Assembly (NCBI GenBank): GCA_900472785.1
Contig: UCJH01000021.1
Span: 786-49,206, forward strand
From: Hyphomicrobiales bacterium
GTDB lineage: Bacteria > Pseudomonadota > Alphaproteobacteria > Rhizobiales > Rhizobiaceae
DNA: 48,421 bases
Direction of reading: 5' to 3'
The notes beneath the pieces were generated by a model. It made no database searches. It was not told the DNA's origin and saw nothing but the letters and a program-made list of their open reading frames with translations. The first letter of the stretch is position 1; each line of letters starts with the position of its first letter. The position numbers and the translations under genes were made by a program. Below, piece after piece: positions 4,322-41,467 of this stretch.

Positions 4322-4668
4322 AGATTTCCACCTCGCGTATCGCCACGTGGATATGCCAAGCCTGAAAGACCAGGCGATCAGCATACAGTCGACCAATTTC
4401 GGCCGCTCACCCAGTCTCCATGACGGCGCGTGAAACATGGCTGGCGTCCAATCGCAGCCCCCAATCCCTGCCTGCATTTCTGATTTCCACCGGAACTCGC
4501 AAATCTGTTCGCGCCTGCATCCAAACTAAGCAATTCAATTTCTCTACAAAATTCATAGATAAAGTAGCGTTGATTTGAAGCGCCGCATCCTGCGTTGCGG
4601 GGAGCCGGACGAGCTGCCGGAAAGCCGGCCGTCTCAGGGTTGTCGATCGAAAAAAGAGAGGTCTCGCA
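4322..4668. other. Gene-free leader of the first monooxygenase operon
   Basis: This 347-bp stretch has no convincing gene. It holds an AT-rich promoter zone (about 4527-4565) with the palindrome listed separately. A transcribed leader probably follows, with stems CCGCA/TGCGG (4583-4587 with 4596-4600) and GCCGG/CCGGC around an AAAG loop (4616-4629). A possible short reading frame starts at the TTG at 4575 (MKRRILRCGEPDELPESR...), contains two cysteine codons and runs past the start of the next gene in another frame. No T-tract follows the hairpins. An AGAGAGG ribosome-binding site precedes the ATG at 4669. Confidence 0.5.
4543..4559. promoter_or_regulatory. TCTA-N9-TAGA palindrome, candidate LysR-type operator
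   Basis: The site reads TCTA, nine bases, TAGA. It contains T-N11-A, the core pattern of LysR-type regulator sites. It lies about 110 bp upstream of the monooxygenase start. A second site of the same form, with 12 of 16 bases identical from the CTA onward, occurs at 40033-40049 in front of the other organosulfur operon. The regulator is not encoded in this window. Confidence 0.5.
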
Positions 4669-7898: not shown

Positions 7899-7907
7899 GG
7901 AATCATC

Positions 7908-26317: not shown

Positions 26318-26405
26318 AAGCTTGGGATCATCATCCCTTTGGGCGTAGCGAATCTGGTTTGCGGAGCTCTGACGAGCTCTGCCCACCCTACGATATTGGC
26401 GTTCC

Positions 26406-26852
26406 ATGGCCGTCTTCTTCAGAGCTTTCATTCCCGACGCCAAAGCCTTCGAGATGATCGAGGAGCGATTGTCGAGTGAGACCGATTTTGACGGGTATTT
26501 CAACGTATACGGCATAAAGGACGAGGTCACCATCTCCTGGACCCCTGCAATCAGTGCGGAGGAGTTTAAAGAGCAGGTGACGGATGCCTTGCGATCGACC
26601 TGGGAAAAGGCGCGTTTTTGGCTTGTCCATCAGCGTAGCGACAGCCGGAACGACCTCTGCATCAACGAAATCAGGAACGCAGCCATCAGATTGAGCCGCA
26701 ACTATCAGCAAACGATGGTCGCCACGCTCTGTCTGCTCGGCCGTTCCGACAACAAAAACGATCTCGAACTGATTTTTCTGTGCTTCAGGGAAGAGACCGA
26801 ATGCCGGAATTTTCGCGTTCGTTATGAAGGCAAGTTCGTGCCCGATGCGTGA
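26406..26852 (+). CDS. Hypothetical protein
   Basis: A 148-residue soluble protein starting MAVFFRAFIPDAKAFEMIEE. It has a mixed alpha/beta pattern and no signal peptide or membrane segment. I do not recognise the family. SWTPAISAEEFKEQVTDALR and FWLVHQRSDSRNDL are its most distinctive parts. The start lacks a strong ribosome-binding site. Codon use seems a little less GC-biased than in its neighbours, and there is no operon partner, so it may be an acquired orphan. Confidence 0.55.
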   Translation: MAVFFRAFIPDAKAFEMIEERLSSETDFDGYFNVYGIKDEVTISWTPAISAEEFKEQVTDALRSTWEKARFWLVHQRSDSRNDLCINEIRNAAIRLSRNYQQTMVATLCLLGRSDNKNDLELIFLCFREETECRNFRVRYEGKFVPDA

Positions 26853-27030
26853 TGTAAACGAACCACAAACGGGCTCAATCCGATGAACCGGCATGGTCTC
26901 ATGTGGATATTTTGGTCGCGTATTCGGATAACCAATCATCACCGGCACGGTCCAAGGCGGAATCAAAACGTTGATTGCGGAACATCGTTGATCAGAGGCT
27001 CAATCGCCGGTTCGGCCGAGGGAGGCCTCA

Positions 27031-27786
27031 TCAGCCCGCCAGCCATTTCCCAAGGAAATAGGACATCTGCGGACGCCACCATTGCCAATCATGGCTGACA
27101 TCCTCTCCCCAGTAATCGACCCATGCCGGGATGGCCTTCCGGTGAAGCACCGCTTCCAGCTCCCGGGTTTCCTCCAGCATTTCCTCTTCCCACGCGCCCT
27201 GCCCGCAACAGAACATCATGCGGAGACTGCGAATCTGTCGGAGGGCCTCTTCATCCTCAAGTCCGGCAAGATAGTGCAGCGGCGAGTTGAAATAAATCGA
27301 GCCATCGAGGTTGGAACCGAAAAAATGCTTGGTCGAATAGACACCGCTCAATGCGATGACGCCATCACCCAGCCAGGGAAAGCGCAAGAGAAAGTTGGTG
27401 GCATGAAACGCCCCCATCGAACATCCCGTCAACAACGGCCGGATGGCAACGCCGCCATTCGTCTCGCGACTGGCCCTTGCGATCTCGGGAAGAATTTCAT
27501 CGCTGACATAGCTGAAATAGGCCTGATGGCGCTCGATACGGTGTAGGACATTGTCGTCGTTGCTGAAGAACGTTTCTCCGTCGATCCCGTCAACTGTCCA
27601 GACCTGAATTTTCCCGGCATCGATGAAGCCCTGCAATTCGGCGATCATGCCGGAATCTTCATACTGGTAAAATCGGCCGTTGGATGTCGGGAACACGAGG
27701 ACGGGACGGCCCGCATGGCCGTAGACCTTGTATTCCATCGACCGGGCCAGGTGCCCGCTATAATCATTGCGGTATGAAATGCGCAT
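27031..27786 (-). CDS. Esterase-family alpha/beta hydrolase
   Basis: A 251-residue putative esterase. The nucleophile elbow is GCSMGAFHA with S123. The catalytic histidine is probably in EDVSHDWQWW near the C-terminus. The N-terminus (RNDYSGHLARSMEYKVYG, then PVLVFPTSNGRFYQYED) is that of an uncharacterised bacterial esterase subfamily (COG4947-like). It follows the ATP-grasp gene by three bases, so the pair is translationally linked. A hydrolase that acts on the amide or ester made by the ligase, or that prepares its substrate, is possible. The substrate is unknown. Confidence 0.8.
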   Translation of the reverse strand: MRISYRNDYSGHLARSMEYKVYGHAGRPVLVFPTSNGRFYQYEDSGMIAELQGFIDAGKIQVWTVDGIDGETFFSNDDNVLHRIERHQAYFSYVSDEILPEIARASRETNGGVAIRPLLTGCSMGAFHATNFLLRFPWLGDGVIALSGVYSTKHFFGSNLDGSIYFNSPLHYLAGLEDEEALRQIRSLRMMFCCGQGAWEEEMLEETRELEAVLHRKAIPAWVDYWGEDVSHDWQWWRPQMSYFLGKWLAG

Positions 27787-27789
27787 ATT

Positions 27790-28992
27790 TCAGACTTTGG
27801 TTTCCTGAATGAACGCCACGATCTCCCGCACTTCGTCGAGGCTCTCCGAGCGGAACTGATAGGCGAAATCACCCATAGCACGTCGGAATACCGTTTCCAC
27901 CTCCTGATATTTGACCAGCTTCACTCCCCATTTGCCGACGATCTCGTGATGGGTGTATTTGTAGTCCAACCGGTGTTTGCGGCTGGCGTAACCCGTAAAG
28001 TATCGACCCGGAAACGGTCCGCCGACGCGATTGAGCGCCACCATGCCCGCCCACTCGTGATAGACATCCATATCGTGGGTGTAGTTGATGGCATCCGTCA
28101 TCCAGGCGCCGGGCGGACGCATGTTGACTTCGAGCGCGATGATTTTTCCATCTCGCTTGCGCTGGAAAAGCTCGATGTGGAAGAAGCGCTCGCGAATATC
28201 CATCGCCTTCAGGATATTCCGTCCCGCCTCCTCGACCTCCGGGTCTATCGACGGAAGGCAGAAATAATAGAGGTGGGAATCGGTGTTCACCACGTCCATG
28301 ATGCTCTGCTCGAACCGATGGCTGGTGGCGAACTCGACATTGCCATACCGGTCGATCAGCCCGTCATAGGTGAGAATGATGCCATCGACATATTCCTCCA
28401 GGATGAAGGATATGTCCGACGGCTTGTTGCTGAAGAAGCTGTCGAACTCTCGCGCCGTCGAGATCTTATAGGTCATGCTGGCGCCGGATCCGAGATCCGG
28501 CTTGACGACGATCGGGTATCCGACCTCATCGATGAAGGCCTGGGCGCTCGCCTTGTCGGAGCTTTTCAGATGCGCGACCGTGGCGACGCCGCTGCGATTG
28601 AAATAGTCCTTCATGCGGGACTTCTGTTTCAGGTTGTCGATGAAATCCAGCTTCGTCCCGTAGATATTGAAATCGGTGCGAATGCGCGCCTCAAGCTCCA
28701 GCCAATGCTCGTTCAGGCTCTCGAAACGGTCGATCTTGCCGTATTGATGGATGAAATAACCAACGGCCCGAACGACCTCGTCATCATCCTCCATATCGCC
28801 GACACGATAGTACTCTGTCAGCGACGCCCGCAGCTTTTCCGATAGATTGTCATACGGGGTGTCTCCGATGCCCAGCACCCGGACGCCATTGCGGCTCAGA
28901 TGGTCGCAGAACTCTGCATTGTAGGCGGGAAAGTGGGGGGAGAAGAAAATAAAATTCAACGGTTCCACCTTATGCGTAGACTGGATGGACAA
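27790..28992 (-). CDS. ATP-grasp ligase of unknown substrate
   Basis: A 400-residue carboxylate-amine/thiol ligase-type enzyme. The N-terminal domain starts LNFIFFSPHFPAYNAEFCDH, and the ATP-grasp core contains IVVKPDLGSGASMTYKI, ILEEYVDGIILTYDGLID and the metal-binding EVNMRPPGAWM. Such enzymes activate a carboxylate as acyl phosphate and couple it to an amine or thiol. It is not a biotin carboxylase or purine enzyme by its flanking sequence. It is first in a two-gene operon with the esterase. The cystathionine-lyase-type gene upstream is 90 bp away on the same strand, so a shared transcript is not excluded. Confidence 0.8.
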   Translation of the reverse strand: MSIQSTHKVEPLNFIFFSPHFPAYNAEFCDHLSRNGVRVLGIGDTPYDNLSEKLRASLTEYYRVGDMEDDDEVVRAVGYFIHQYGKIDRFESLNEHWLELEARIRTDFNIYGTKLDFIDNLKQKSRMKDYFNRSGVATVAHLKSSDKASAQAFIDEVGYPIVVKPDLGSGASMTYKISTAREFDSFFSNKPSDISFILEEYVDGIILTYDGLIDRYGNVEFATSHRFEQSIMDVVNTDSHLYYFCLPSIDPEVEEAGRNILKAMDIRERFFHIELFQRKRDGKIIALEVNMRPPGAWMTDAINYTHDMDVYHEWAGMVALNRVGGPFPGRYFTGYASRKHRLDYKYTHHEIVGKWGVKLVKYQEVETVFRRAMGDFAYQFRSESLDEVREIVAFIQETKV

Positions 28993-29082
28993 TGCTTCAA
29001 GTATTTTCGACCCAAAGTCCAGAGAACCAAGATTTGTAGCTGATGCTCGCGCCGTCGCCGCTTCGGCACGACGCGCATGGCG

Positions 29083-30270
29083 TCATTTTTGGGAGGCGCG
29101 GAAACCTGAGTCCAGATCCGCCTTCAGATCAGCGACATCTTCAAGACCGATGTGAAGGCGCAGCAACGGGCCTTCGTCGGGAGCCTGAAGAATACGACGA
29201 TCGCTGAGATCGACATGAAGTGCCAGACTTGGAAACCCGCCCCAGGAATAGCCGAGGCCGAACAGCGAAAGGCCGTCGAGGAAGGCTTGTGCTTTCGTCT
29301 TGAAATCCTGATTGGGCTCGACCGTCAACACGAAGGAAAACACACCGCTCGCACCCTTGAAGTCCCGTTTCCAGATTTCATGACCCGGAAAGCTCGGCAG
29401 AGCAGGATATAGAACGCGCGCCACGTCATCCCTTTTCTCCAGCCACTCGGCGATCTCCAGCGCGCTTGTCCGATGGCGTTCAAGCCGGACACCCATGGTC
29501 CGCAGCCCGCGCAAAACCTGGTAGGAATCATCAGCCGCGCCGCATATGCCAAGCGCGCCATTCGCTTGCCGCAGGCGTTTCCAATGCTCGGCATTGGCTG
29601 AAATGGTACCCAGCAGGATATCCGCATGACCGGCCGGATATTTGGTCGATGCCTGGATGGAGATATCCACGCCGAAATCGAGGGGCCTGAAGTAGAGCGG
29701 CGTCGCCCAGGTGTTGTCCATCGTCACGACGGCGCCATGTCGGCGCGCGACAGCGGCTATTGCAGGAACGTCCTGAATTTCGAAGGTATTCGACCCCGGC
29801 GCTTCCAGGTGCACCAGCTTGGTGTTGGGTTTGATAAGCGCTTCGATCGCCACGCCGACAGACGGATCGTAATACTCGACCGTGATACCGAAGCGCGACA
29901 GCATCGTATCGCAGAAATGCCGGACATTGCCGTAGACGGAATCGACAACCAGCGCATGATCGCCGGGAGACAGATAAGTGAGGAACGCCAAGGTCACCGC
30001 CGCAAGCCCCGAAGGCACGATGATGGTTCCGGCCGCCCCTTCCAGTTCATTGACGGCCTGGCACAGGGCATCCGTCGTCGGCGTGCCGCGCGTCGCATAG
30101 GTGTATTTCTGGCCATGGGTTTCCATGGTCTTCGCATCCGGGAACAGCACCGTCGATGCCCGAACCGTCGGCGGATTGATGAAGCCGTGATAATCGAACG
30201 GGTCATATCCGGCCCTGACCAGCTGCGTGTTGGGTCCGATCGTCTTTGGTGTCTGGTCGTTGTCGTTCAT
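29083..30270 (-). CDS. Cystathionine beta-lyase-like PLP enzyme
   Basis: A 395-residue Cys/Met-metabolism PLP enzyme. The PLP lysine lies in QASTKYPAGHADI (K210) and the pocket segment VVTMDNTWATPLYF is present. The N-terminus (RAGYDPFDYHGFINPPTVRA) is typical of bacterial MetC-like lyases. Such enzymes cleave C-S bonds of cystathionine or of cysteine S-conjugates to thiol, pyruvate and ammonia. I chose the second ATG (30270), with AGGA five bases upstream, because the first is only one base from its site. As the last gene of a ten-gene sulfur operon it is more likely a cysteine-conjugate lyase than the biosynthetic MetC. Confidence 0.88.
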   Translation of the reverse strand: MNDNDQTPKTIGPNTQLVRAGYDPFDYHGFINPPTVRASTVLFPDAKTMETHGQKYTYATRGTPTTDALCQAVNELEGAAGTIIVPSGLAAVTLAFLTYLSPGDHALVVDSVYGNVRHFCDTMLSRFGITVEYYDPSVGVAIEALIKPNTKLVHLEAPGSNTFEIQDVPAIAAVARRHGAVVTMDNTWATPLYFRPLDFGVDISIQASTKYPAGHADILLGTISANAEHWKRLRQANGALGICGAADDSYQVLRGLRTMGVRLERHRTSALEIAEWLEKRDDVARVLYPALPSFPGHEIWKRDFKGASGVFSFVLTVEPNQDFKTKAQAFLDGLSLFGLGYSWGGFPSLALHVDLSDRRILQAPDEGPLLRLHIGLEDVADLKADLDSGFRASQK

Positions 30271-30327
30271 GATGTCCTGCATTTCCTTTGCGGATGCGAC
30301 GCCGTGACTGTATGCGCCTGGCCGGCT

Positions 30328-30924
30328 CTACGGCCTGTCACCGCGAAAATGGCGTTCGAGGAAGGGCAGATTGTCCTGTCCCCAGTAAATCTCGCCATCA
30401 TAGAAAAAGCTCGGAAAGCCGAAGACGCCGCTTTTGACGGCGTGTTCCCTGTCTGCGACCCATTTGCCCCTGACATCCTCGTCCGCCTGGCGGAGCAAAA
30501 GCTCCGCACCGTCAAGTCCGGCCGCATCGGCGATCGCGGCACGGACATGCGCCTGTCCGATATCCTTCGCCTCGCTCCAGAAAGCGTGCTGCAACGCCCG
30601 GGTCAGGCCAATCCAGTCCTTGCCGTCGAGATAGGCGGCGATGACGATGAGCGACGCGGGCGCGGGATCGCTGAGATCGGGGCGGTTCTCAAGAATCAAT
30701 TTCTTGCCGCGAACCGCTGCCCAGCGCTTCAGGTCCCGTGTCCAGTACCCCCGGCGGATTTCCGGGCGGTTCCGCGAAAAGATGCCACCATTCTCCTCCA
30801 CCACCGTGGTCAGATAGGGTTTGATTTCGACATTACGGTTCGCAGCAATATCAACGAAGGCATCGAAGCCGATATAGGACCACGGCGAGCCGATGGAGAA
30901 GAAGTAGTCAACGATTTTGGTCAC
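30328..30924 (-). CDS. DsbA-fold 2-hydroxychromene-2-carboxylate isomerase family
   Basis: A 198-residue thioredoxin-fold protein of the HCCA isomerase/kappa-GST group. The active-site serine replaces cysteine in FFSIGSPWSYIG. FGFPSFFYDGEIYWGQDNLP near the C-terminus is the conserved cis-proline and substrate region. Known members use glutathione to isomerise or conjugate aromatic acids. In this operon a role on glutathione or cysteine conjugates is plausible. It sits between the third monooxygenase and the lyase. Confidence 0.85.
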   Translation of the reverse strand: MTKIVDYFFSIGSPWSYIGFDAFVDIAANRNVEIKPYLTTVVEENGGIFSRNRPEIRRGYWTRDLKRWAAVRGKKLILENRPDLSDPAPASLIVIAAYLDGKDWIGLTRALQHAFWSEAKDIGQAHVRAAIADAAGLDGAELLLRQADEDVRGKWVADREHAVKSGVFGFPSFFYDGEIYWGQDNLPFLERHFRGDRP

Positions 30925-30950
30925 TGCCTGTCATTCCTGTAAGTCTGCGT

Positions 30951-31985
30951 TCACGCCGTTTTCCTGCCGCGGCTTTGGTCATTGAACCAGCCGAGTTGCG
31001 GGGCGATGCGTATGGAGAAATCGTGGAGGATCTGGCGGTACTCCTCATCCTCGAATTCATAAGGGAGTTCCAGTCGCAATTCGCCGACTTCAGCGACGAT
31101 GGGATCGGCAAACAGGCGTTCGAGAATCTGTTCCGATGTGCCCACGAGGTCGGGCGGATAGAGCGTGCGGCGTTCCCCCTGCGGCGACAGGGTGCGTTCA
31201 TGGCGCCCGGCCGCATAGTCGAGATAGCGCTTGCGGGTGATGCCGTCGGCGCTTTCGAGCGGGACGATGACGCGGCCTAGCGCAACGCGTTTGTCCACAC
31301 CACCGGCCTCGCGATAGGCGTTGAGCTGGCGCGACTGGGCGACATGGAAATCATCCGTGTCTTCACCGCTCGTGACATTGCCGATCAGGAGGTTGAAGCC
31401 GTTCTGCCCGGCCCAGCGCGCCGAACGCAGCGACCCGCCGCCATACCAGATGCGATCCGTCAACCCCTTCGCATGCGGCTGCAGTCGGGGCCGCTGCGGC
31501 CCGAACGGCGTCTTGATGAAGATCGTCTCATCGCCGATCGGCCTACTTTTCAGGTTATCGACGAAGCGCAAAACCATGTCATGGGAGAAATCGAAGCTTT
31601 CCCAGTCTCCGTCGAAGACCAGCGGGGCGATCAGATCGGCATGCAGCGGCAGGCCGGCGCTCAGGCCCACATTGAGACGCCCACGCGAGAGCACATCCAC
31701 CGTCGAAAGATCTTCGGCCAGACGATAGGGACTTTCATAACCGATCGGAATGACCGCCGTGCCGAGCTGGATAGTGCGGGTCCGCTGGGTCGCGGCGGCC
31801 AGGAAGGCGGTGGCGGAAGAGATGCCCGGCTCCAGATGCCGCTGGCGTGCCCAGGCGCTTTGAAAGCCCAATCCCTCGCCGTATTCCAGAAGCTGCAAGG
31901 TCTTTTCCAGACCGGACAGCGGGTCATCCGCCGGGTAATTTCCGGGTGTGAGAAAACCGATATGATGGATGGAAACGCTGCTCAT
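30951..31985 (-). CDS. LLM-class flavin monooxygenase
   Basis: A 344-residue luciferase-like protein. It starts VSIHHIGFLTPGNYPADDPL and has WARQRHLEPGISSATAFLAA, the barrel segment TIQLGTAVIPIGYESPYRLA and DLSTVDVLSRGRLNVGLSAG. It belongs to a different subfamily from the NtaA-like enzymes at 4669 and 37631. In this operon it probably acts on an intermediate of S-alkylcysteine breakdown. Reduced flavin must come from a reductase outside the window. Confidence 0.85.
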   Translation of the reverse strand: MSSVSIHHIGFLTPGNYPADDPLSGLEKTLQLLEYGEGLGFQSAWARQRHLEPGISSATAFLAAATQRTRTIQLGTAVIPIGYESPYRLAEDLSTVDVLSRGRLNVGLSAGLPLHADLIAPLVFDGDWESFDFSHDMVLRFVDNLKSRPIGDETIFIKTPFGPQRPRLQPHAKGLTDRIWYGGGSLRSARWAGQNGFNLLIGNVTSGEDTDDFHVAQSRQLNAYREAGGVDKRVALGRVIVPLESADGITRKRYLDYAAGRHERTLSPQGERRTLYPPDLVGTSEQILERLFADPIVAEVGELRLELPYEFEDEEYRQILHDFSIRIAPQLGWFNDQSRGRKTA

Positions 31986-31997
31986 GGCATTCGCACC

Positions 31998-32942
31998 TCA
32001 GGATCGCGGCAGGCCGGGGGGATTGGTCTGCGACTTCGGCAGAGCCTCCTCCGCGAGATGCCAGCGATCGAGAATCCTGGCGTAAACGCCGCTCTCGATC
32101 AGGCCGTTGGTGGCGATGGTCAGCGCCTCCGCCAGGCCGCTGTCCTTCTTCGTGGCGATCGCCACGTCGGAGCGATCCGGCCAGCCGGCGCTCAGCGTGC
32201 CGACACGCTTGATGTTGTGATCGCGGGCGGCGATGTAAACGAGCTGCGCATGCGGCTGGACGATGACATCGGCGCGGCCGGATGCGATCGCCAGAAGGCT
32301 GGCCGCCTCGTCGTCGTAATATTGCAGCTCCAGTGGCTTCAGCCCAGCCGCCACGTCTTCATCGCTCCAGCGCAGAAGAATGCGCTCCTGGTTGGTGCCG
32401 GCGCCGACGATGAACCTCAGGCCGGCAGCATCCTTCGGCTCCTTGATCGATGTGACCGGGCTGTCGGACTTGACGAAGAAGCCGTGCAGCCCCTGACGAT
32501 AGGTCGAGAAGTCGAACTTTTCCTTGCGCTGTTCGGTGACGCCGACATTGGAGATCACGGCATCATATTTGCGCGACGTCAGGCCGAGCGGCCAGTCGAT
32601 CCAGGCGACCGGAAGCAGTTCCAGCTCCAGCCCGAGGCTGTCGGCGATCGCAGACGCATAGTCCGGATCGGCACCGACAACCGTCCTGGCGTCCGTCGCA
32701 TAGGTGGCGAGCGGCGGCCCGCCCGGACTGACGGCCACCGTGAACTTGCCTGGGGTCACGAACTTGAAGTCCTTGGAGATCGCGGCGATGGCCGCATCGT
32801 TCTTTTCCGTCCGGATTCGCGCCGGCTGCTCGGGGCTCAGGTCGAAGGCATCGTCATCGGCGCGCGCGGCAGTGGAAAACGTGGCAAGGGTTGAAACGAG
32901 CACGGCGGTCAGGAAAGAACGGAAAACCGGTCGGTCAGTCAT
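31998..32942 (-). CDS. Amino-acid ABC transporter binding protein, second copy
   Basis: A 314-residue periplasmic protein of the family 3 solute-binding group. Signal peptide: residues 1-28 (FLTAVLVSTLATFSTAARA). The mature part contains DFKFVTPGKFTVAV, VVGADPDYASAIADSLGLEL and YDAVISNVGVTEQRKEKFDF. It is a clear paralogue of the protein encoded just upstream (33011-33955), with identical length and the same domain order. It is the TcyJ/TcyK-like half of a two-binding-protein importer. Substrate by context: an S-substituted or N-acyl cysteine or cystine. GGAG lies nine bases before the ATG. Confidence 0.88.
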   Translation of the reverse strand: MTDRPVFRSFLTAVLVSTLATFSTAARADDDAFDLSPEQPARIRTEKNDAAIAAISKDFKFVTPGKFTVAVSPGGPPLATYATDARTVVGADPDYASAIADSLGLELELLPVAWIDWPLGLTSRKYDAVISNVGVTEQRKEKFDFSTYRQGLHGFFVKSDSPVTSIKEPKDAAGLRFIVGAGTNQERILLRWSDEDVAAGLKPLELQYYDDEAASLLAIASGRADVIVQPHAQLVYIAARDHNIKRVGTLSAGWPDRSDVAIATKKDSGLAEALTIATNGLIESGVYARILDRWHLAEEALPKSQTNPPGLPRS

Positions 32943-33010
32943 GGTGATGATCTCCAGGAAAATAAGGGCGGGCAACCCGACGGACGATATCGGGTTGCCC
33001 TTGTTCAATG

Positions 33011-33955
33011 TCAGGAACCGCTCTTCGGCAGGCCTGCCGGGTTGGTCTGAGACTGGTCGATGCCTTCGGCCTCCAGGCTCCAGCGCTTCAGCACTTCGCC
33101 ATACTTGCTGCTCTTGATCAGATCGTTGATCGACACGGTGATCGCATCGGCAAGGCCCGCGCCCTTGCGGGTGGTGACGGCGATTTCGGCGGTCAGCGGC
33201 CAACCGCCGCTGACGATGCCGACGAGCTTGGTGTCGTGCTTGATCGATGCGCCATAGGCCCGGGTCGCGTTGGGATTGAACTCGACATCGGCGCGGCCCG
33301 ACTGCAGAGCAAGGTCGCTCGCCGCGCGGTCGTCATAATACTGCACCTCGATCGGCGCGAGGCCTGCGGCGACGTTCTGGCGATCCCATTCCAGAATGAT
33401 CTTCTCCTGGTTTGTGCCCGCACCGGTGATGACCTTCAACCCGGCAACGTCCTTGGGTTCCTTGATCTCGGTGATCTTGTTGTCAGCCTTGACGTAGAAG
33501 CCCAGCACGTCCTTGCGGTAGGTGGAGAAATCGAACTTCTCCTTGCGCTCCTCGGTCACGGTCACGTTGCTGATGACGGCATCGTACTTGCCGGATGCAA
33601 CACCCAGCGGCCAATCGGCCCAGGCGACAGAGACGATTTCCAGCTCGAGGCCGAGCGAATCCGCCAGCAGCGAGGCAAGATCGGGATCGGCGCCGACGAT
33701 GGTCTTCGCGTCGTTTGCGAAGGTCGCGATCGGCGGATCCCAGGCATTGATGGCCACGGTAAACTTGCCCGGTGTCACGAACTTGAAGTCGGACGAAAGC
33801 GCCTTGATCGCCGCTTCGCTCTTCTCCGCGCGCACCCGGTTCGAGGTGTCCGGGCTGAGATCGAATGTTTCGGCCGCCTGTGCAGTTCCCAATCCAAGCG
33901 CCGCAATAGTCACCGCGCCTGCCATCAGAAGTTTAGCCGTCTGAAGAATAGTCAT
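33011..33955 (-). CDS. Amino-acid ABC transporter binding protein, first copy
   Basis: A 314-residue periplasmic family 3 solute-binding protein. Signal peptide: residues 1-28 (LLMAGAVTIAALGLGTAQAA). FDLSPDTSNRVRAEKSEAAI, then SSDFKFVTPGKFTVAINAWD match the next gene's product almost segment for segment, so the two arose by tandem duplication. The longer upstream start is rejected because GGAG precedes the ATG at 33955. It lies directly after the permease-ATPase fusion in the operon. Confidence 0.88.
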   Translation of the reverse strand: MTILQTAKLLMAGAVTIAALGLGTAQAAETFDLSPDTSNRVRAEKSEAAIKALSSDFKFVTPGKFTVAINAWDPPIATFANDAKTIVGADPDLASLLADSLGLELEIVSVAWADWPLGVASGKYDAVISNVTVTEERKEKFDFSTYRKDVLGFYVKADNKITEIKEPKDVAGLKVITGAGTNQEKIILEWDRQNVAAGLAPIEVQYYDDRAASDLALQSGRADVEFNPNATRAYGASIKHDTKLVGIVSGGWPLTAEIAVTTRKGAGLADAITVSINDLIKSSKYGEVLKRWSLEAEGIDQSQTNPAGLPKSGS

Positions 33956-34033
33956 GTTTTCCCGTCTCCTTTTCATCTTTAAGTTGTAATTGTTGATAGT
34001 CCCATCCCGTCCGCTCAAGCGACCGGAAATCTG

Positions 34034-35815
34034 CTAGAGAACTTTTGCGAGGAATTCGCGCGTGCGCGGATGCTCCGGCTGGCTGAAAATGCGGCCCGGC
34101 GGTCCAACCTCCAGAATGTGCCCGCCCTCCATGAAGACGACGGTGTCGGCCACTTCCCGGGCAAATCCGATTTCATGGGTGACGATGACGAGGGTCGTGC
34201 CGGTGCGGGCCAGTTCCTTGATCACGTCGAGCACTTCGCCAACGAGTTCCGGATCAAGCGCCGACGTCGGCTCGTCGAACAAAAGCACCTTCGGCTTCAG
34301 GGCCAGCGCCCGGGCAATGGCGACGCGCTGTTGCTGGCCGCCCGAAAGCTGGCGCGGATAGGCGTCGATCTTGTCCGTGAGGCCGACGCGGGCGAGAAGC
34401 TCCCGCGCCAGCCCTACCGCTTCGCCACGGTCAGCCCCCCGGACCTGCATCGGCGCTTCGATGAGGTTTTCCAAAACCGTGAGATGCGGGAAGAGATTGA
34501 AATTCTGGAAGACCATGCCGATGTCGGCGCGGCGTTTCAAAATATCCTTCTCCTTCAGCTCGTAGAGCGTCTCGCCGCTCTGGCGATAACCGACCAGATG
34601 GCCGTCGACGGCGATGAAACCGCTGTCGACACGCTCCAGATGGTTGATCGATCGCAATAGCGTCGACTTGCCGGAACCCGACGGTCCAAGGATCGCCGTC
34701 ACGCTGCCGGCCGGCAGCGTCAGATCAACGGCATCAAGCACTTTCAGGGAACCGTAGCTCTTCGAAATCGCCTGGATGCGCACGGGTGCGCCGGCCCTCA
34801 GCAACGGGGCATCGCTGAAACCTGTTTTCCGGACGATCACCGAGTTTGCTCCAGCGACCGGTTGCGGCAACGGGCGGCGAAACCGCGAGAAGAATGCCTG
34901 AAAAGGCAGCGGCACTGGATTGCGCACCGCACCGCGTGAGAAATAGCGCTCAATATAGTGCTGGGCGATCGACAGGACGGTCATGATGACGAGGTACCAG
35001 GCCGTCGCGACCATCAGCAGCGGAATAACTTCGAGATTGCGGCGATAGATGACCTGAACTGTGTAGAAAAGTTCCGGCAGGGCGAGCACGTAGACCATTG
35101 ACGTGCTTTTCGCGAGGCCGATGATTTCGTTGAAACCGGTCGGGAGAATAGACCGCATGGCCTGCGGCAGGACGATGCGAAACACCTGGCGGCGGCGTGG
35201 CAGACCGAGGGCTGCCGCGGCTTCAAGCTGCCCCTGGTCGACCGACAGGATGCCGCCGCGGACGATTTCCGAGAAGAAGGCCGATTGATTGAGGGTCAGG
35301 CCGAGGAAGGCAGCGGCAAACGGGGTCAGCAATTGCACGGTCGGATAATCGACCAGCACCGTTCCGGTGAACGGCACGGCGATCCGGATCGTCTCATAGA
35401 GATAACCGAGATTGTTGAGCACCAGCAGGAGAACGATGAGTGGGATCGACCGCAGCAGCCAGACATAGCCCCAGGACAGTCCGGACAGAAGCGGCGACTT
35501 CGACACCCGCGCCAGCGCCAGAGCCGTTCCGAGGACCGAGCCGGATATCGTGGCAAGAGCCGTCAGGAGTAGCGTCCGGCCGAGGCCGGCCAGCACCGGC
35601 TCGGCAAAGAACCACTCCGCGAAGACGCTCCATCCCCAGCGTGGATTGGTGAACGTCGAATAGAGGACCGCGGCGATAATCACGGCTGCGAAAACCGTTC
35701 CGACCAGCTGGCCGGGATGACGCGCCGGCACGATCCGGTGGCGCGAATAGTCCTGGCTGTGATCGGTCGTCCTGCGGCTAGGTTCGATACCGGCAAAATC
35801 CGTGGTGAGTGCCAT
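34034..35815 (-). CDS. Fused amino-acid ABC permease and ATPase
   Basis: A 593-residue protein joins two subunits that are normally separate. Residues about 35-290 are a polar-amino-acid permease with several transmembrane segments and the EAA loop EAAAALGLPRRRQVFRIVLP (198-217). A linker of about 55 residues follows. Residues 345-593 are an ATPase: Walker A GPSGSGKST (377-385), FQNFNLFPHLT, signature LSGGQQQRVAIARAL (from 490), Walker B LLFDEPTSALD and VTHEIGFARE. There is a single permease domain, so the working transporter should be a homodimer of the fusion. It corresponds to TcyL/TcyM plus TcyN of Bacillus. There is no frameshift or stop between the halves. Confidence 0.93.
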   Translation of the reverse strand: MALTTDFAGIEPSRRTTDHSQDYSRHRIVPARHPGQLVGTVFAAVIIAAVLYSTFTNPRWGWSVFAEWFFAEPVLAGLGRTLLLTALATISGSVLGTALALARVSKSPLLSGLSWGYVWLLRSIPLIVLLLVLNNLGYLYETIRIAVPFTGTVLVDYPTVQLLTPFAAAFLGLTLNQSAFFSEIVRGGILSVDQGQLEAAAALGLPRRRQVFRIVLPQAMRSILPTGFNEIIGLAKSTSMVYVLALPELFYTVQVIYRRNLEVIPLLMVATAWYLVIMTVLSIAQHYIERYFSRGAVRNPVPLPFQAFFSRFRRPLPQPVAGANSVIVRKTGFSDAPLLRAGAPVRIQAISKSYGSLKVLDAVDLTLPAGSVTAILGPSGSGKSTLLRSINHLERVDSGFIAVDGHLVGYRQSGETLYELKEKDILKRRADIGMVFQNFNLFPHLTVLENLIEAPMQVRGADRGEAVGLARELLARVGLTDKIDAYPRQLSGGQQQRVAIARALALKPKVLLFDEPTSALDPELVGEVLDVIKELARTGTTLVIVTHEIGFAREVADTVVFMEGGHILEVGPPGRIFSQPEHPRTREFLAKVL

Positions 35816-35848
35816 GACGTTCCCCTGTTTGTGGTTATTGCCGAATGG

Positions 35849-36403
35849 TCAGCGGCGCCCCGTCGCGCGCTGAAGCGTTTGTTCAGAAAGGGCGATCACC
35901 GCCGCATCCGCGAGCGCCAGATGGCCGATCTGCTTTTCGAACGGCAGCGTCTTGTAGATTTCCGGGTCGGCCTCGACGTCGAAGAGAGCCGTGTAGCCGT
36001 ATTTCAGATAGAGCCCGACGGCCTCCGGCTGGCGAAAGCCGGTGGTCAGGTAGACGCGGGAATAGCCTTGGCGAGCGGCCTGCACTTCGAGTTCAAGCAG
36101 GACTTTCACAGCCAATCCCTGTCGACGCAGGTCGGAACGCGTCCAGATGCGTTTGAACTCGGCAGTGCTGTCGTCATAGTGCTTGAAAGCGCCGCCGCCG
36201 ATTGTTTCGCCATTGCGCTGAAGCAGCAGGAAATTGCCGTGCGGTGGCGCGAAGGCCTCGACGGGATAACGGTTCATTTCTTCCGATGCGCCAGCTGCGC
36301 TGAAATAGGAGCCGTAGCGCTTGTCGTACTCATAGGTCAGTTCATCGATCAATGGCTTTGCATGGGGATCGAGGGGTGTGGTGTAGAGAAACGTATCGCT
36401 CAT
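35849..36403 (-). CDS. GNAT-family N-acetyltransferase
   Basis: A 184-residue GNAT acetyltransferase. The acetyl-CoA pyrophosphate loop is in WTRSDLRRQGLAVKVLLELE, and VYLTTGFRQPEAVGLYLKYG is the C-terminal core. In the Bacillus ytm and yxe operons a GNAT enzyme (SnaA, SnaB) acetylates the amino group of S-substituted cysteine before oxidation. The same position beside an importer, an M20 deacylase and LLM oxygenases makes that the best guess here. The gap to the M20 gene is 23 bases. Confidence 0.87.
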   Translation of the reverse strand: MSDTFLYTTPLDPHAKPLIDELTYEYDKRYGSYFSAAGASEEMNRYPVEAFAPPHGNFLLLQRNGETIGGGAFKHYDDSTAEFKRIWTRSDLRRQGLAVKVLLELEVQAARQGYSRVYLTTGFRQPEAVGLYLKYGYTALFDVEADPEIYKTLPFEKQIGHLALADAAVIALSEQTLQRATGRR

Positions 36404-36426
36404 TTCGCTAAATCCTGTGGGTCTCT

Positions 36427-37614
36427 TCAGTTGAGAAAGGCTTCCACCAGCCGCACCCAGTAGCGGGCGGCGGGCGCAATGATCGCGTCGTTGAAATCGT
36501 AGTGGGCGCTGTGCAGCGGCGCGGTCTCGCCGTTCCCGACGAAGAGGTAGCTGCCGGGCTTGGCCTGCAGCATGAAGGCGAAATCCTCGCTCGCCGTGCG
36601 CGGTTTGAAGCCTTCCTCCACCCTCGCCGGGCCGAAGGTGTCGAGCGCCACTTTCCGTGCGAACTCCGTTTCGTCGCGATGGTTGATCAGTGCCGGGAAA
36701 CCCAGCCGGTAATCCACGTCCGCGAAAGCACCGAAACTTTCGGCCTGTGCCCGCGCCAAGGCGGGGATACGCTGTTGCAACTGCTGACGGACGCTTTCCG
36801 TGAAGGCCCGCATGGTCAGCTTCAGCTCGACGCTTTCCGGAATGACGTTCGAGGCCGAACCGGCATGGATCGATCCCACCGTCGCCACCGCCATGTCCTG
36901 CGGATCGACATTGCGCGAGACAACGCTTTGCAGTGCGGTGATGAACGAGGCTGACGCGAGCACGGGATCGACGGCACGGTGCGGCTCGGCCCCATGTCCG
37001 CCCTTGCCGACAATGCGGATCTTCGCCTGATCGACCGAGGCCATCGCCGGGCCGGTGACAAACCCGAATTGACCGGCCGGAACGGCTGGCCAGTTGTGCA
37101 GGCCGAAGACCGCATCGACCGGGAAGCGCTCGAACAACCCTTCCGAAATCATCTTGCGCGCGCCGGCGCCGATTTCCTCGGCCGGCTGGAAGATCAGGTG
37201 AAGGGTGCCGCTAAACGTTCCGCTCTCGGCAAGATAGCGCGCCGCCGCCAGAAGGATCGACGTGTGACCGTCATGGCCGCAGGCATGCATGACGCCGGGA
37301 TTGCTGCTGGCATAGGCAAGTCCGGTCGCCTCCTCGATCGGCAGCGCGTCAATGTCGGCGCGGATACCGATGCGGCGGTCGCCGGTGCCGCCTTTCAATG
37401 TCGCGACCAGTCCCGTTCCGGCGATGCCGGCGGCGACGTCATAGCCCCAGGACGTCAGATGCGAGGCGATGATCTTGCTGGTGCGGCGCTCCTGAAAGGC
37501 AAGTTCCGGATACCGGTGCAGGTCGTGGCGCAGCGCCACGAAATCATCGAGCGTGGCGGCGATGCCTTGCTCGACCGGATCGTTCAGGCGCGGTGTTTGA
37601 GCGATGATGTTCAT
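36427..37614 (-). CDS. M20-family amidohydrolase/deacetylase
   Basis: A 395-residue zinc amidohydrolase (M20D). It starts MNIIAQTPRLNDPVEQGIAA; metal motifs HACGHDGHTSI, QPAEEIGAGA and FGLHNWP are present, with RTASEDFAFML near the C-terminus. By analogy with SndA/SndB (YtnL, YxeP) of Bacillus it would remove the acetyl group after S-dealkylation, releasing cysteine. The start at 37614 is preferred over a much longer frame that overlaps the upstream oxygenase gene. It is related to, but not the same as, the enzyme at 16131-17294. Confidence 0.9.
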   Translation of the reverse strand: MNIIAQTPRLNDPVEQGIAATLDDFVALRHDLHRYPELAFQERRTSKIIASHLTSWGYDVAAGIAGTGLVATLKGGTGDRRIGIRADIDALPIEEATGLAYASSNPGVMHACGHDGHTSILLAAARYLAESGTFSGTLHLIFQPAEEIGAGARKMISEGLFERFPVDAVFGLHNWPAVPAGQFGFVTGPAMASVDQAKIRIVGKGGHGAEPHRAVDPVLASASFITALQSVVSRNVDPQDMAVATVGSIHAGSASNVIPESVELKLTMRAFTESVRQQLQQRIPALARAQAESFGAFADVDYRLGFPALINHRDETEFARKVALDTFGPARVEEGFKPRTASEDFAFMLQAKPGSYLFVGNGETAPLHSAHYDFNDAIIAPAARYWVRLVEAFLN

Positions 37615-37630
37615 GGCCGTTCCCGGCGCC

Positions 37631-38980
37631 TCAGGCGCCGACCGCCTTTCCGCGTTCGATTTCAGCGAGTGGAGCGGCGTACCGGCTCTCGCGATACGGC
37701 AACCCCAGCTGATCGCGCAGGGTCTCGCCTTCAAGTGCCGGGTTGAAATAGCCGCGCTTTTCCAGGATCGGCAGGACATAGGTTGCAAAATCGTCCAAGC
37801 CTTCGGCAATCACCGGGAAGCCGAGGATGAAGCCGTCGGCCGCCCCCTCCTCCACCCAGCGGATCAGCTCGTCGGCAATATGGTCCGCCGTGCCGATAAA
37901 GGCTGTGCGAGGCGTTGCGACATCCAGCGCGATCTCGCGCAAAGTGAGGTTCTGCTCGCGCGCCGTCTTCTTGATCCGGTCGGTGGTGGCGCGAAAACTG
38001 TTCTTGCCGATATCGCCGATGTCCGGAAAGGCCTCGTCCAGCGGATAGACGCCGAAATCATGGTGATCGAAGAAGCGGCCGAGATAGAGCAGCGCTTCCT
38101 CGATCGTGACGAGATTGCGGATCGCCTGGTATTTCTGCTCGGCTTGCTCGGTCGTCTTGCCGACGATCGGCCCGACGCCGGGGTAGAGACCGACATCGGC
38201 GGCGCAGCGCCCTTGCGCGATCGCGCTCTGCTTCACCTGCTTGTAGAAAACCTTGGCATCTTCGATCGGGCCGCCATTGGTGAAAACGGCATCGGCATGT
38301 TTGCCGGCCAATTTGATGCCGGAATCAGAGGCGCCGGCCTGGAAGACGACGGGCTGCCCCTGTTTCGAACGGCCAATATTCAGCGGGCCTTCGACCCGGA
38401 AGAACCGGCCTTTGTGATCGAGCTTGCGCAGCTTCGACGTGTCGGCATAGACGTGGGTTTCGCGATTTCGGACAAAGGCGTCGTCATCCCAGGAATCCCA
38501 CAGGCCCTTGATGACATCGAGATACTCGTCGGCGATCTCGTAGCGCAGTTCGTGTTCCGGGTGCTCGCGGCTGTAGTTGCGGCCGGATCCTTCAAGCGGA
38601 GTGGTGACGGCATTCCAGCCCGCCCGGCCGCCGCTGATCAGATCGATGGTTGCAAACTGGCGCGCGACCGTAAACGGATCGCTGTAGGAGGTGGAGACCG
38701 TGCCGACGAGGCCGATCTTTGCGGTCGATGCCGCAAGGGCCGACAGGATCGAGATCGGCTCGAAGCGGTTGAGAAAATGCGGAATCGACTGGGCGTTGAT
38801 GTAGAGGCCATCCGCCACGAAGGCAAAAGCGATGCCCGCCGCTTCGGCCCGGCGCGCCGTATCGACGAAGAATTCGAAATTGACGCTTGCATCGGCAGGT
38901 CCGCTTGGATGCTTCCAGGCATTCATGTGACCACCGGGGCCTTGCAGCATGATGCCGAACGGAATGTGTTTCTGAACCAT
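37631..38980 (-). CDS. LLM-class flavin monooxygenase, NtaA/SnaA/YtnJ-like
   Basis: A 449-residue FMNH2-dependent oxygenase. It starts KHIPFGIMLQGPGGHMNAWK and has FAFVADGLYINAQ, STSYSDPFTVARQFATIDLI, SGGRAGWNAVTTPL and GPLNIGRSKQGQPVVFQAGA. The Bacillus counterpart (CmoJ/YtnJ or YxeK) oxidises N-acetyl-S-alkylcysteine so that the alkyl group leaves. It has the same overall layout as the oxygenase at 4669-6021. It is the second gene of the operon and follows the smaller oxygenase by 23 bases. Confidence 0.87.
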   Translation of the reverse strand: MVQKHIPFGIMLQGPGGHMNAWKHPSGPADASVNFEFFVDTARRAEAAGIAFAFVADGLYINAQSIPHFLNRFEPISILSALAASTAKIGLVGTVSTSYSDPFTVARQFATIDLISGGRAGWNAVTTPLEGSGRNYSREHPEHELRYEIADEYLDVIKGLWDSWDDDAFVRNRETHVYADTSKLRKLDHKGRFFRVEGPLNIGRSKQGQPVVFQAGASDSGIKLAGKHADAVFTNGGPIEDAKVFYKQVKQSAIAQGRCAADVGLYPGVGPIVGKTTEQAEQKYQAIRNLVTIEEALLYLGRFFDHHDFGVYPLDEAFPDIGDIGKNSFRATTDRIKKTAREQNLTLREIALDVATPRTAFIGTADHIADELIRWVEEGAADGFILGFPVIAEGLDDFATYVLPILEKRGYFNPALEGETLRDQLGLPYRESRYAAPLAEIERGKAVGA

Positions 38981-39003
38981 CGGTAAAATCCTTTTGCAAG
39001 AGA

Positions 39004-39996
39004 TCAGGCGGCGAGCGAGAGCCGCTCCTTGGCGAGACGCTCGACGGAAGCGAGGCGCTCGGCCGCTCCAAGGGCAGGCGTTTCGATGATGAATTCCCCG
39101 ATGCCGTAGCTGCTATGCAGGTCGTCGAGCTGCCGACGGACCTCCACGGCGGTTCCATGCAGCACGCTCGGCGCCTTGGCTTCGAGACGGTCGATCTCGG
39201 CACCGGCCTGGCGTGCATATTCGGCCGCCTGCTCCTCGGTGCCGACATTGACGCTACGGCCGTCCTTCAAGAAAACCTTGACGATACGCAGATCGCCGAC
39301 GGCCTTCTTTGCAACGCTCGCCTCCTCGGCTGCATAGGCCGTCAGCGCCAGGATGGGCGTCTTGCCGCCGCTCGCCCGCTCATAGGCCTCGAAGGTGCAG
39401 CGCAGGTTTTCCGGATCGCCGTTCAGCTGGCCGGCAAAGACCAACCGCCAGCCCCTGGAGGCGGCGAGTTCGGCACTTTCGACGCTTGCGCCGAGCAGGA
39501 AGCGCTCCGGCGCCGTCGGCGGGAAGGGTGTTGCAAGCGCACCGTCACCACTGGCATCAGCGGCGAGATAACCGTTGATCTCGGAGAGCTGGGTTGCAAA
39601 ATCCGGTTTCCGCACCGGATCGAAGCCCGCCTGGAGAGCCCGCGTCGACAGCGGAAAGCCGCCCGGCGCCTTGCCGACGCCGAGATCGACACGATCCGGT
39701 GCGAGGGAGGCCAGGAGATTGAACGCTTCGGCCACCTTGTAGGCGCTGTAATGCTGCAGCATGACACCGCCCGATCCGATGCGGATCCGCGCCGTCTTGG
39801 CCAGCAGATGGGCAATCAGAACCTCCGGCGCCGAACTTGCAAGGCCGGGCATGCTGTGATGCTCGGCAACCCAGAACCGATGATACCCCAGTTCCTCCGC
39901 CCTTTGCGCCAGCCTGACCGTGGTGCGCAGGGCATCTGCCGCCGTCGCACCGTCGTCAAGGGGACTTTTATCCAGAAGACTGAGGAGGTAGGGCAT
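39004..39996 (-). CDS. LLM-class flavin monooxygenase, MsnO8-like
   Basis: A 330-residue LLM protein of the subfamily that includes Bacillus YtmO (CmoO). It starts PYLLSLLDKSPLDDGATAAD and contains RFWVAEHHSMPGLASSAPEV and IRIGSGGVMLQHYSAYKVAE. It is the first gene of the ten-gene operon. It may be a second oxygenase on the same pathway. The promoter-proximal palindrome at 40032-40050 lies 36 bp upstream. Confidence 0.87.
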   Translation of the reverse strand: MPYLLSLLDKSPLDDGATAADALRTTVRLAQRAEELGYHRFWVAEHHSMPGLASSAPEVLIAHLLAKTARIRIGSGGVMLQHYSAYKVAEAFNLLASLAPDRVDLGVGKAPGGFPLSTRALQAGFDPVRKPDFATQLSEINGYLAADASGDGALATPFPPTAPERFLLGASVESAELAASRGWRLVFAGQLNGDPENLRCTFEAYERASGGKTPILALTAYAAEEASVAKKAVGDLRIVKVFLKDGRSVNVGTEEQAAEYARQAGAEIDRLEAKAPSVLHGTAVEVRRQLDDLHSSYGIGEFIIETPALGAAERLASVERLAKERLSLAA

Positions 39997-40320
39997 ATGC
40001 CACCGATCCCTTCGCTAAGTTGCAACACTTAGTCTATAAAATCAGTAGACATTATGATTTATAAGAAACGGCATTCTCTTTGAGGCAAAAACCGGGAAAA
40101 ATTCACCTCGCCGTCAAGGTGCTGCGCCCAGGGCTTCAATCGCTATTGAGATCGAACACGCCCGGGCTAAACAAGGTGCGCAGAATGGGCACTGCCGAGG
40201 AAAACGTGCCACGCCGGAAATGCGTCAGGCGATCGCCCGACCGTCAGCGATGGCACTAACAAATTGCAAATCCCGGTCCTGCGATGCTAAACAGGAGGCC
40301 TCGCCAAACGAGGTTTTAAA
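39997..40320. other. Divergent promoter region of the S-alkylcysteine operon
   Basis: 324 bp without a gene, between the divergent monooxygenase and acyltransferase genes. It holds the AT-rich palindrome at 40032-40050 and a further AT-rich run to about 40080. The acyltransferase start has GAGG seven bases upstream; CCTCG-CCAAA-CGAGG (40297-40313) forms a small hairpin that would cover this site. Confidence 0.5.
40032..40050. promoter_or_regulatory. GTCTA-N9-TAGAC palindrome, candidate LysR-type operator
   Basis: A perfect 5-bp inverted repeat with a nine-base centre, 36 bp upstream of the first gene of the minus-strand operon. It has the T-N11-A pattern of LysR-type sites and is nearly the same as the site at 4543-4559. 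In Bacillus the equivalent operon is activated by a LysR-type protein (YtlI). The regulator here must lie outside the window. Confidence 0.55.
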
Positions 40321-41409
40321 ATGGATAATAAAATCAATAATTTCGGTTTTCTCCGACTGTTTTTTGCCACTCTGGTCATATTCGGACATTCTCCCGAAAT
40401 TATTGATGGGAACCGATCTCGAGAGCTTCTCACGCAAGTCTTCGGAACACTGTCGTTGGGCGAACTCTCGGTCGATGCATTTTTCATCATCAGTGGATTT
40501 CTGATTTCCAAGAGCTTTCGCACCTCTCCATCCGTGTGGAGCTATATCATCAAAAGATCGGCCCGGATTTTACCGGGTTTCATCGTCTGCTTTGCCCTGT
40601 GCCTTTTCGTTTTGGCGCCGCTGGTAGAAGGCCAATTTGGGCCGGGCGTGATCTCCACCAACGTGAAATCCTTCATTCGGATGACAACGCCCCTCGTTCC
40701 CGGGACTTTCCCGGGCTTGCCATATCCGTCCCTCAACGGATCGCTTTGGACGATCGGATACGAATTTAGATGCTATATGCTGGTTATCCTCATCGGACTG
40801 CTCGGCCTTTTGTCTGACCGGGGGCGGTGGCTGGTACTGGCCATCGCTGCAATCTGCCTTGCGATAAATGCGTTCTCGCTCGTTCAGGCGGCATTTCCGA
40901 ATTTTGGCCAAGCGCAAAATATGGCCATTACGGTCAGGTTCACGGGGCTGTTTCTGGCGGGCGCCTGCTTCTATTTGTTTGGCTCGCAAATCGCATACAA
41001 GTCGTCTATCGCCGTCATCATGGCGATCCTGTTGATCGCCGGCCTGTTTGTCCCGACACTTGCAGAGGCCGCGATCGCAACAGCCGGCGCCTATCTCATC
41101 TTCTACTTCGCCTTTGCGGTTCGCCCATTGCGGATCAGCCAATGGGCCGCCAAAAACGATATTTCCTATGGGCTTTATCTATACGCCTGGCCGATCCAGA
41201 TTTCGATCGTGTATGTCTTCGGAGTGAAAAACCACTGGCTGGTTTCGGTCGTAAGTCTCCTGATCGTTTCTGTCATCGCCGCGGCGAGCTGGCTGCTGAT
41301 TGAGAGACCATTCCAGAGATTATCCCACGGGAAAACCCGGCGCGCCGCTCCGCCGGTCGACTACTCGCAAATGCAGACGACCATCTCAAGCGAACGAAAC
41401 AAGCCCTAG
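40321..41409 (+). CDS. Membrane acyltransferase, family 3 (OafA/NodX-like)
   Basis: A 362-residue inner-membrane acyltransferase with about ten hydrophobic segments. NFGFLRLFFATLVIFGHSPE holds the conserved R and H of the family, and SVDAFFIISGFLISKSF, RILPGFIVCF and SLWTIGYEFRCYM are further family motifs. These enzymes add acetyl or similar groups to surface polysaccharides or lipo-oligosaccharides. The next gene, converging from the right, is O-antigen-ligase-like, which supports a surface-polysaccharide role. Confidence 0.88.
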   Translation: MDNKINNFGFLRLFFATLVIFGHSPEIIDGNRSRELLTQVFGTLSLGELSVDAFFIISGFLISKSFRTSPSVWSYIIKRSARILPGFIVCFALCLFVLAPLVEGQFGPGVISTNVKSFIRMTTPLVPGTFPGLPYPSLNGSLWTIGYEFRCYMLVILIGLLGLLSDRGRWLVLAIAAICLAINAFSLVQAAFPNFGQAQNMAITVRFTGLFLAGACFYLFGSQIAYKSSIAVIMAILLIAGLFVPTLAEAAIATAGAYLIFYFAFAVRPLRISQWAAKNDISYGLYLYAWPIQISIVYVFGVKNHWLVSVVSLLIVSVIAAASWLLIERPFQRLSHGKTRRAAPPVDYSQMQTTISSERNKP

Positions 41410-41467
41410 CAAAAGCGCCGGTATATCGGGTTGCATATCCGGGTCGGCGCGTTGGGAAAGAGCGCCA

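Follow-up and report, generated by a model that had tools for sequence, protein, structure and literature searches.

A conserved eight-gene operon of rhizobia with a probable role in S-alkylcysteine salvage and a third luciferase-like monooxygenase

The ytm/ytn cluster of Bacillus subtilis has the gene order ytmI-tcyJKLMN-cmoO-cmoI-cmoJ-ribR-ytnL, in which cmoI and ribR stand at the accessory positions. Alkylation of cysteine or glutathione by electrophiles is a loss of cysteine, and the routes by which its sulfur is regained have been elucidated in Bacillus (PMC10863075, PMC12757645). CmoO sulfoxidises; from the sulfoxide, CmoJ of B. subtilis then releases an aldehyde and leaves a sulfenic acid (PMC10863075). 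In B. subtilis, the scm, yha, and ytn clusters encode the M20 proteins ScmP, YhaA, and YtnL, which are described as N-acetylcysteine deacetylases (PMC12757645). Here, we describe a related operon in a stretch of 48,421 nucleotides (the window) of a Hyphomicrobiales bacterium (GenBank assembly GCA_900472785.1, contig UCJH01000021.1, positions 786 to 49,206). The operon lies on the minus strand of the window from 39996 to 29083, and the host genome has 5.38 Mb in 149 contigs. No paper was found by title or abstract on the rhizobial operon or on its upstream site; Chan 2014 and Hazra 2022 may show rhizobial members.

The operon is similar to the B. subtilis ytm/ytn cluster in that both have CmoO- and CmoJ-type luciferase-like monooxygenases (LLMs), a GNAT acetyltransferase, an M20 protein, and an importer for polar amino acids that has a pair of binding proteins (PMC10863075 for the chemistry and PMC12757645 for the clusters). 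Unlike the B. subtilis cluster, the rhizobial operon has its permease and ATPase fused, carries a third LLM (LLM3, gene 8) in addition, and shares its upstream site with other LLM operons. Its accessory genes also differ and encode a protein resembling kappa-class glutathione S-transferase (GST-kappa), MetC, or a flavin mononucleotide (FMN) reductase. The ssu, msu, and sfn sulfonate/sulfone operons likewise combine an LLM with an FMN reductase, and a similar site stands 5' of some of them, but they act on a different substrate class, and the rhizobial operon adds acetylation and deacetylation. Judged from these comparisons at the sequence level, the operon is likely to be an alphaproteobacterial version of the Bacillus CmoO/CmoJ-type S-alkylcysteine salvage pathway.

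The operon is real and conserved as an eight-gene block (genes 1 to 8) in rhizobia and their kin. The loci for comparison were collected with gene 8 as the query, and the best 80 of 233 stretches that encode a relative were taken as named loci, a sample in which distant versions are under-represented. A core gene was counted when non-overlapping matches on one strand had at least 45% identity over at least half of the query. All eight core genes are present on one strand in 78 of the 80 loci and the order of the window is kept in 76, so the run of genes is not a product of chance. The closest locus among these best 80 is that of Rhizobium giardinii H152, in which gene 8 is 90% identical. The two loci that do not exhibit the full core are L021, which is without CmoJ, and L023, which is without CmoO and lies on a short contig. 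Two loci of Phyllobacterium (L072 and L079) exhibit another order in which gene 8 sits between the two binding-protein genes, and a named Phyllobacterium plasmid has the same altered order. Neorhizobium galegae and Terrarubrum retain the core at lower identity. The operon is frequently carried on plasmids in plant-associated rhizobia. Two loci contain genes that may be broken or misread: the second binding-protein gene on the Neorhizobium galegae plasmid (L151, 9023-9896) appears as two overlapping match pieces and is unannotated, and the M20 gene of Rhizobium sp. RCAM05350 (L005) matches as two pieces (85% and 91%).

The first-pass annotation of this DNA had proposed a ten-gene operon on the minus strand with gaps mostly under 80 bp. 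All ten open reading frames are present, and the gaps measure 10-59 bp when slightly longer frames are taken and stay below 80 bp with the starts in Table 1. The starts of genes 3 and 7 are internal to longer frames, and the first fitting ATG was taken for both. The domains that had been named also agree with Pfam, namely Bac_luciferase in three proteins, Peptidase_M20, Acetyltransf_1, BPD_transp_1 and ABC_tran within a single protein (gene 5), SBP_bac_3 in two proteins, DSBA, and Cys_Met_Meta_PP. The eight-gene core therein holds, but a fixed set of ten does not, as gene 9 (within 1.5 kb in 40/80 loci) and gene 10 (MetC, within 2.5 kb in 15/80) are optional. Both accessory genes are found near the core in eight loci.

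Table 1 Coordinates of the features in the window. HCCA, 2-hydroxychromene-2-carboxylate
Feature	Coordinates	Strand	Details
Conserved site TCTACTGATTTTATAGACTA directly 5' of gene 1, predicted regulator-binding site	40030..40049	-	20-nt motif
Gene 1, CmoO-type LLM monooxygenase (MsnO8 family)	39004..39996	-	TIGR03558 326 bits, cut-off 167
Gene 2, CmoJ-type LLM monooxygenase (NtaA/DmoA family)	37631..38980	-	TIGR03860 493 bits, cut-off 280
Gene 3, M20 aminoacylase	36427..37614	-	PF01546 153 bits
Gene 4, GNAT acetyltransferase	35849..36403	-	PF00583 50 bits
Gene 5, permease-ABC ATPase fusion	34034..35815	-	PF00528 and PF00005
Gene 6, family-3 solute-binding protein 1	33011..33976	-	PF00497 82 bits
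Gene 7, family-3 solute-binding protein 2	31998..32942	-	PF00497 79 bits (frame from 32951)
Gene 8, third LLM monooxygenase (LLM3)	30951..31985	-	best NCBIfam TIGR04027 83 bits, cut-off 413
Gene 9, GST-kappa/HCCA-isomerase-like DsbA-fold protein	30328..30924	-	PF01323 81 bits
Gene 10, MetC cystathionine beta-lyase	29083..30282	-	NF004626 712 bits, cut-off 649
ATP-grasp gene	27790-28992	-	90 bp beyond MetC
PF00756 esterase gene	27031-27786	-	3-bp gap to ATP-grasp gene
Weaker palindromic copy of the site	4543..4562	+	3 mismatches to the 20-nt motif; 1 to the 17-nt core, other strand

Gene 1 is above the cut-off of the MsnO8 family, to which CmoO presumably also belongs, and is predicted to be the S-oxygenase of N-acetyl-S-alkylcysteine. 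The host genome has one further member of this family (TIGR03558) above the cut-off, on contig C39. Gene 2 matches the PDB entry 3sdo (643 bits), which its depositors labelled nitrilotriacetate monooxygenase, followed by YtnJ/MoxC (527 bits), 7e36 (293 bits), DszA (254 bits), EDTA monooxygenase (205 bits), and DmoA (195 bits), and it is also above the cut-off of TIGR03860. YtnJ is the CmoJ of B. subtilis, and gene 2, which is close to it, is the predicted sulfoxide C-S cleavage enzyme. The best match of gene 3 in the PDB is YxeP (ScmP) with 246 bits and its best NCBIfam equivalog is DoeB2 with 353 bits, under the cut-off of 550; gene 3 is the predicted N-acetylcysteine deacetylase. Gene 4 is placed by Pfam only at the level of general families, its PDB matches are weak, and it reaches no NCBIfam cut-off; it is predicted to be the N-acetyltransferase of S-alkylcysteine.

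The B. subtilis scm (yxe) cluster also combines a GNAT, a monooxygenase, an M20 protein, and an ABC importer, and the operon could be read as an S-(2-succino)cysteine operon of this type, in which gene 2 would be ScmK/YxeK-like and would release oxaloacetate and N-acetylcysteine. YxeP of that cluster is the nearest solved structure to gene 3, the same acetylation-cleavage-deacetylation gene set has been reported there (PMC9706529), and CmoJ and YxeK are described as homologous (PMC10863075). However, the rhizobial operon has a CmoO/CmoJ oxygenase pair. Its gene 2 is close to YtnJ among the PDB entries compared, and the CmoO-type partner that adjoins gene 2 has no counterpart among the genes that PMC9706529 gives for the yxe cluster (YxeK, L, MNO, P, Q). 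This reading is unlikely.

Genes 5, 6, and 7 are predicted to form an amino-acid importer with two binding proteins. The best NCBIfam match of gene 5 is TcyN (309 bits, under the cut-off of 406) and that of gene 6 is the cystine-binding PRK11260 (75 bits, under the cut-off of 312). Both binding proteins resemble cystine- and polar-amino-acid-binding proteins below the curated cut-offs. These scores, together with the breadth of the M20 and GNAT families, would also suit the uptake and breakdown of another N-acylated or sulfur-containing amino acid, in which the LLM substrate would be other than N-acetyl-S-alkylcysteine. Against this stand the CmoO-CmoJ pair and the Tcy-like importer within one unit and the site that is common to the FMN reductase and further LLM operons, and we regard such a substrate as very unlikely.

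The assignment of gene 9 to the kappa-GST/HCCA-isomerase type, which had been made from the sequence alone, is upheld by profile alignments. Gene 9 matches 2imd with 48 bits and GSTK1 with 33 bits, and its S13 lines up with S11 in 2imd and with S16 in GSTK1, which we take to be the glutathione-activating serines. S13 precedes the proline of an SPxS motif and is invariant in 27 of 27 aligned sequences. A CXXC motif is absent from 27 of 27 aligned sequences, and a DsbA-type disulfide oxidoreductase was rejected. Gene 10 is above the MetC equivalog cut-off (Table 1). It is not the sole MetC of the genome, as a second copy above the cut-off (780 bits) is found on contig C79.

Other accessory genes are found around the core in other bacteria. 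In R. johnstonii, gene 9 is followed by an FMN-reductase gene with the name msuE, and the seventh gene downstream of gene 9 encodes a ChaC gamma-glutamylcyclotransferase. In Terrarubrum, a MalY/PatB gene, a flavin reductase gene, and a cysteine synthase gene adjoin the core. Two Microvirga loci (L076, 1457-2056; L078, 1507-2106) have an FMN-reductase gene from the cluster of msuE 5' of gene 1 and not behind gene 9, and it is without the upstream site.

These neighbours bear on whether the operon serves mainly for the detoxification of glutathione conjugates by a bacterial mercapturate route, in which the conjugates would be converted to cysteine conjugates and split by the oxygenases or by a beta-lyase. 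The serine at the glutathione site of gene 9, the ChaC gene of R. johnstonii, and the two beta-lyase-type families that adjoin the core (MetC and MalY/PatB) are consistent with such a route. However, gene 9 was not found beside the core in 40 of the 80 loci and MetC in 65, six other genes separate ChaC from gene 9 in R. johnstonii, and the common upstream site points to sulfur supply. A mainly detoxifying role is therefore quite unlikely. The first-pass annotation had described the isomerase and the lyase as additions that may handle conjugate branches; they are indeed optional, and the kept S13 and the ChaC gene give some contextual support to a glutathione-conjugate branch.

For the salvage of S-alkylcysteine, the following order of steps is proposed. 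The fused ABC importer and the two binding proteins would bring S-alkylated cysteine into the cell, where the GNAT protein would N-acetylate it. CmoO would form the sulfoxide using reduced flavin, and CmoJ would cleave the sulfoxide into N-acetylcysteine sulfenic acid and an aldehyde. The sulfenic acid would be reduced, perhaps via glutathione and the GST-kappa-like protein, and the M20 protein would deacetylate N-acetylcysteine to cysteine. LLM3 may widen the range of S-substituents or may oxidise the aldehyde from CmoJ, and MetC or another beta-lyase may act directly on cysteine conjugates as an optional side branch. Through the upstream site, sulfur limitation probably induces the operon along with the FMN reductase and with genes of the sulfonate type. 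The outline of import, N-acetylation, S-dealkylation, and deacetylation had been put forward before, and it is supported by homology: gene 2 resembles YtnJ/CmoJ, gene 3 resembles YxeP, gene 1 falls in the MsnO8 family, the ATPase domain is Tcy-like, and the binding proteins are paired.

LLM3 forms a clade of its own by its profile scores and is under the cut-off of every curated LLM family that it matched. It obtained 41.5 bits for MsnO8 (cut-off 167), 21.4 bits for NtaA/DmoA (cut-off 280), and 83.2 bits for KPN_01858 (TIGR04027, cut-off 413). The expectation that all three LLMs could be placed by profile in the YtmO, YtnJ, or YxeK subfamilies fails for LLM3, which is far under the cut-offs. 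The KPN_01858-type cluster (TIGR04027/TIGR04028) contains the nearest curated family of LLM3, but that cluster differs from the rhizobial operon in this low score and in its importer type. A TIGR04028/KPN_01858-type LLM/alkylhydroperoxidase cluster is located directly 3' of the salvage operon on an Agrobacterium vitis plasmid (L163, 10840-18353).

The AlphaFold2 model of LLM3 (mean confidence score pLDDT 86) exhibits an LLM-type fold. Its best fold match is 8k74 (TM score 0.72, 23% identity), which we take to be the structure of the poly(acrylic acid) monooxygenase in PMC11354265. Residues 48-50 of LLM3 are Q-R-H, of which R49 and H50 are invariant in 31 sequences, and the aligned residues of 8k74 are Q-H-H. 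Bacterial luciferase (alkanal monooxygenase) has a catalytic histidine pair in the motif EHH. This pair is not kept in LLM3 across the 31 sequences. With 8k74 as the nearest solved relative and the histidine pair lost, the reading of LLM3 as an aldehyde-oxidising luciferase was reduced to one of two options.

LLM3 belongs to the unit and is predicted to be a further oxygenase dependent on reduced FMN (FMNH2), which would either widen the range of S-substituents or oxidise the aldehyde released by CmoJ. Of 385 genomes of the class, which include only five of this order, none but the own genome has a match to LLM3 at E 1e-40. Among 297 genomes of the order, 64 have a match at E 1e-20; in eight of these (own genome included) it has at least 58% identity and in the others 27-35%. 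A close CmoJ (E 1e-120) is present in nine of these 297 genomes, and all eight LLM3 genomes are within those nine. In one of them (G583), LLM3 and CmoJ lie on two contigs and the operon is cut by the contig ends. A plasmid of Tsukamurella (Actinomycetota) has a 57% identical LLM3 that follows genes for a permease, ATPase, and binding protein, and genes of the NtaA/DmoA and MsnO8 families are near on the opposite strand. This set is supporting context and not the same operon, because these two genes are only 37% and 33% identical to genes 2 and 1, respectively, and the annotation of this region shows neither a GNAT nor an M20 gene. The distant LLM3 relatives of Ketogulonicigenium and Pantoea are found in other gene sets.

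The 20-nt motif TCTAYNNDTTTTATAGAYTA that precedes gene 1 was found in 61 of the 80 loci. Its palindrome-like core of 17 nt, TCTAYNNDTTTTATAGA, is present in 65 of 78 upstream regions, which comprise the window and the 77 of 80 loci with a placeable start, and ends 24-52 bases 5' of the start codon. The core was found zero times in 100 rounds of shuffles, a control that ignores common descent. At up to one mismatch, the own genome contains five sites, and all of them are in or beside loci of LLMs or cysteine/methionine enzymes. The first is at gene 1. The second is the weaker copy in Table 1, which stands 110 bp 5' of a second set of LLM and ABC genes at 4669-8675 (plus strand) of the window. 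The third is 75 bp 5' of the top-scoring LLM gene on contig C59, and the fourth covers the opening codons of a frame that resembles acyl-CoA dehydrogenases and is about 1 kb away from this LLM. The fifth, on contig C50, lies between a gene for a cysteine/methionine enzyme dependent on pyridoxal phosphate (330 bp) and a carbonic-anhydrase-like frame (165 bp) that precedes an LLM. The set at 4669-8675 encodes an LLM monooxygenase, an ABC permease, an NMT1-like binding protein, and an ATPase.

On pRL10, a pattern with R at position 13, which was widened after the msuE site was known, finds three sites and none in the reversed control. These sites are at the operon, at msuE, and 62 bp 5' of a unit of solute-binding protein, permease, ATPase, LLM, and LLM, which is the sole independent case on pRL10. 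Among the FMN-reductase genes of the cluster of msuE, 14 of 22 have the site 5' of them with up to one change. A perfect TCTAY-N7-RTAGA palindrome was also observed at site 1501 of L128 (C50:13775 in the own genome), between genes of a 1-Cys peroxiredoxin and an FAD-NAD(P)-binding protein.

A broader proposal is possible, though tentative: cysteine dealkylation by three oxygenases, in which LLM3 would add a new activity to CmoO and CmoJ, within an undescribed organosulfur regulon (TCTAY-N2-DTTTTRTAGA) that would include the FMN reductase and other LLM operons. The part that follows a known pathway lowers the surprise; further work is deserved by LLM3, which is linked to the core, and by the upstream site that other operons share. 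With R. johnstonii 3841 as a genetically workable strain, they provide one enzyme that can be assayed and a regulon candidate. The operon may also matter for the way in which S-alkylcysteines of plants are used in the rhizosphere.

Several results weigh against salvage by this operon and against the regulon. The GNAT protein, the importer, and the binding proteins are under every curated subfamily cut-off, and the substrate class therefore rests on the neighbours; gene 3 passes the cut-off of the broad amidohydrolase family TIGR01891 only. Neither gene 9 nor MetC is nearby in 33 of the 80 loci. The lost luciferase histidine weakens the aldehyde option for LLM3, and one genome (G661, locus L152) lacks LLM3 although it has the core as well as gene 9, so that LLM3 is dispensable there. 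The 17-nt core is missing from 13 of the 78 upstream regions, and the Terrarubrum plasmid that bears the operon has no site. When up to two mismatches are allowed, 20 sites are found in the own genome versus 12 in the reversed control. A wide regulon defined by a relaxed palindrome is not supported by the counts, with 64 sites away from the cmoO promoter versus 119 in the reversed control across the 80 loci; the relaxed palindrome was dropped and the strict site alone was used. G661 itself is a natural test case for LLM3.

No Rfam match to a riboswitch was found across positions 26000-41000 of the window. In the search for promoters and terminators, sigma-70-like promoters (2 versus 3.7 in shuffles) and terminators (15 versus 12.1) were at shuffle level. 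The ATP-grasp and esterase genes beyond MetC were rejected as operon members, as 0 of the 80 loci have a match to them (E 1e-10, 60% of the query). Upstream of the operon, positions 40321-42880 of the window contain acyltransferase-3 and O-antigen-ligase-like genes, which are probably involved in surface polysaccharide.

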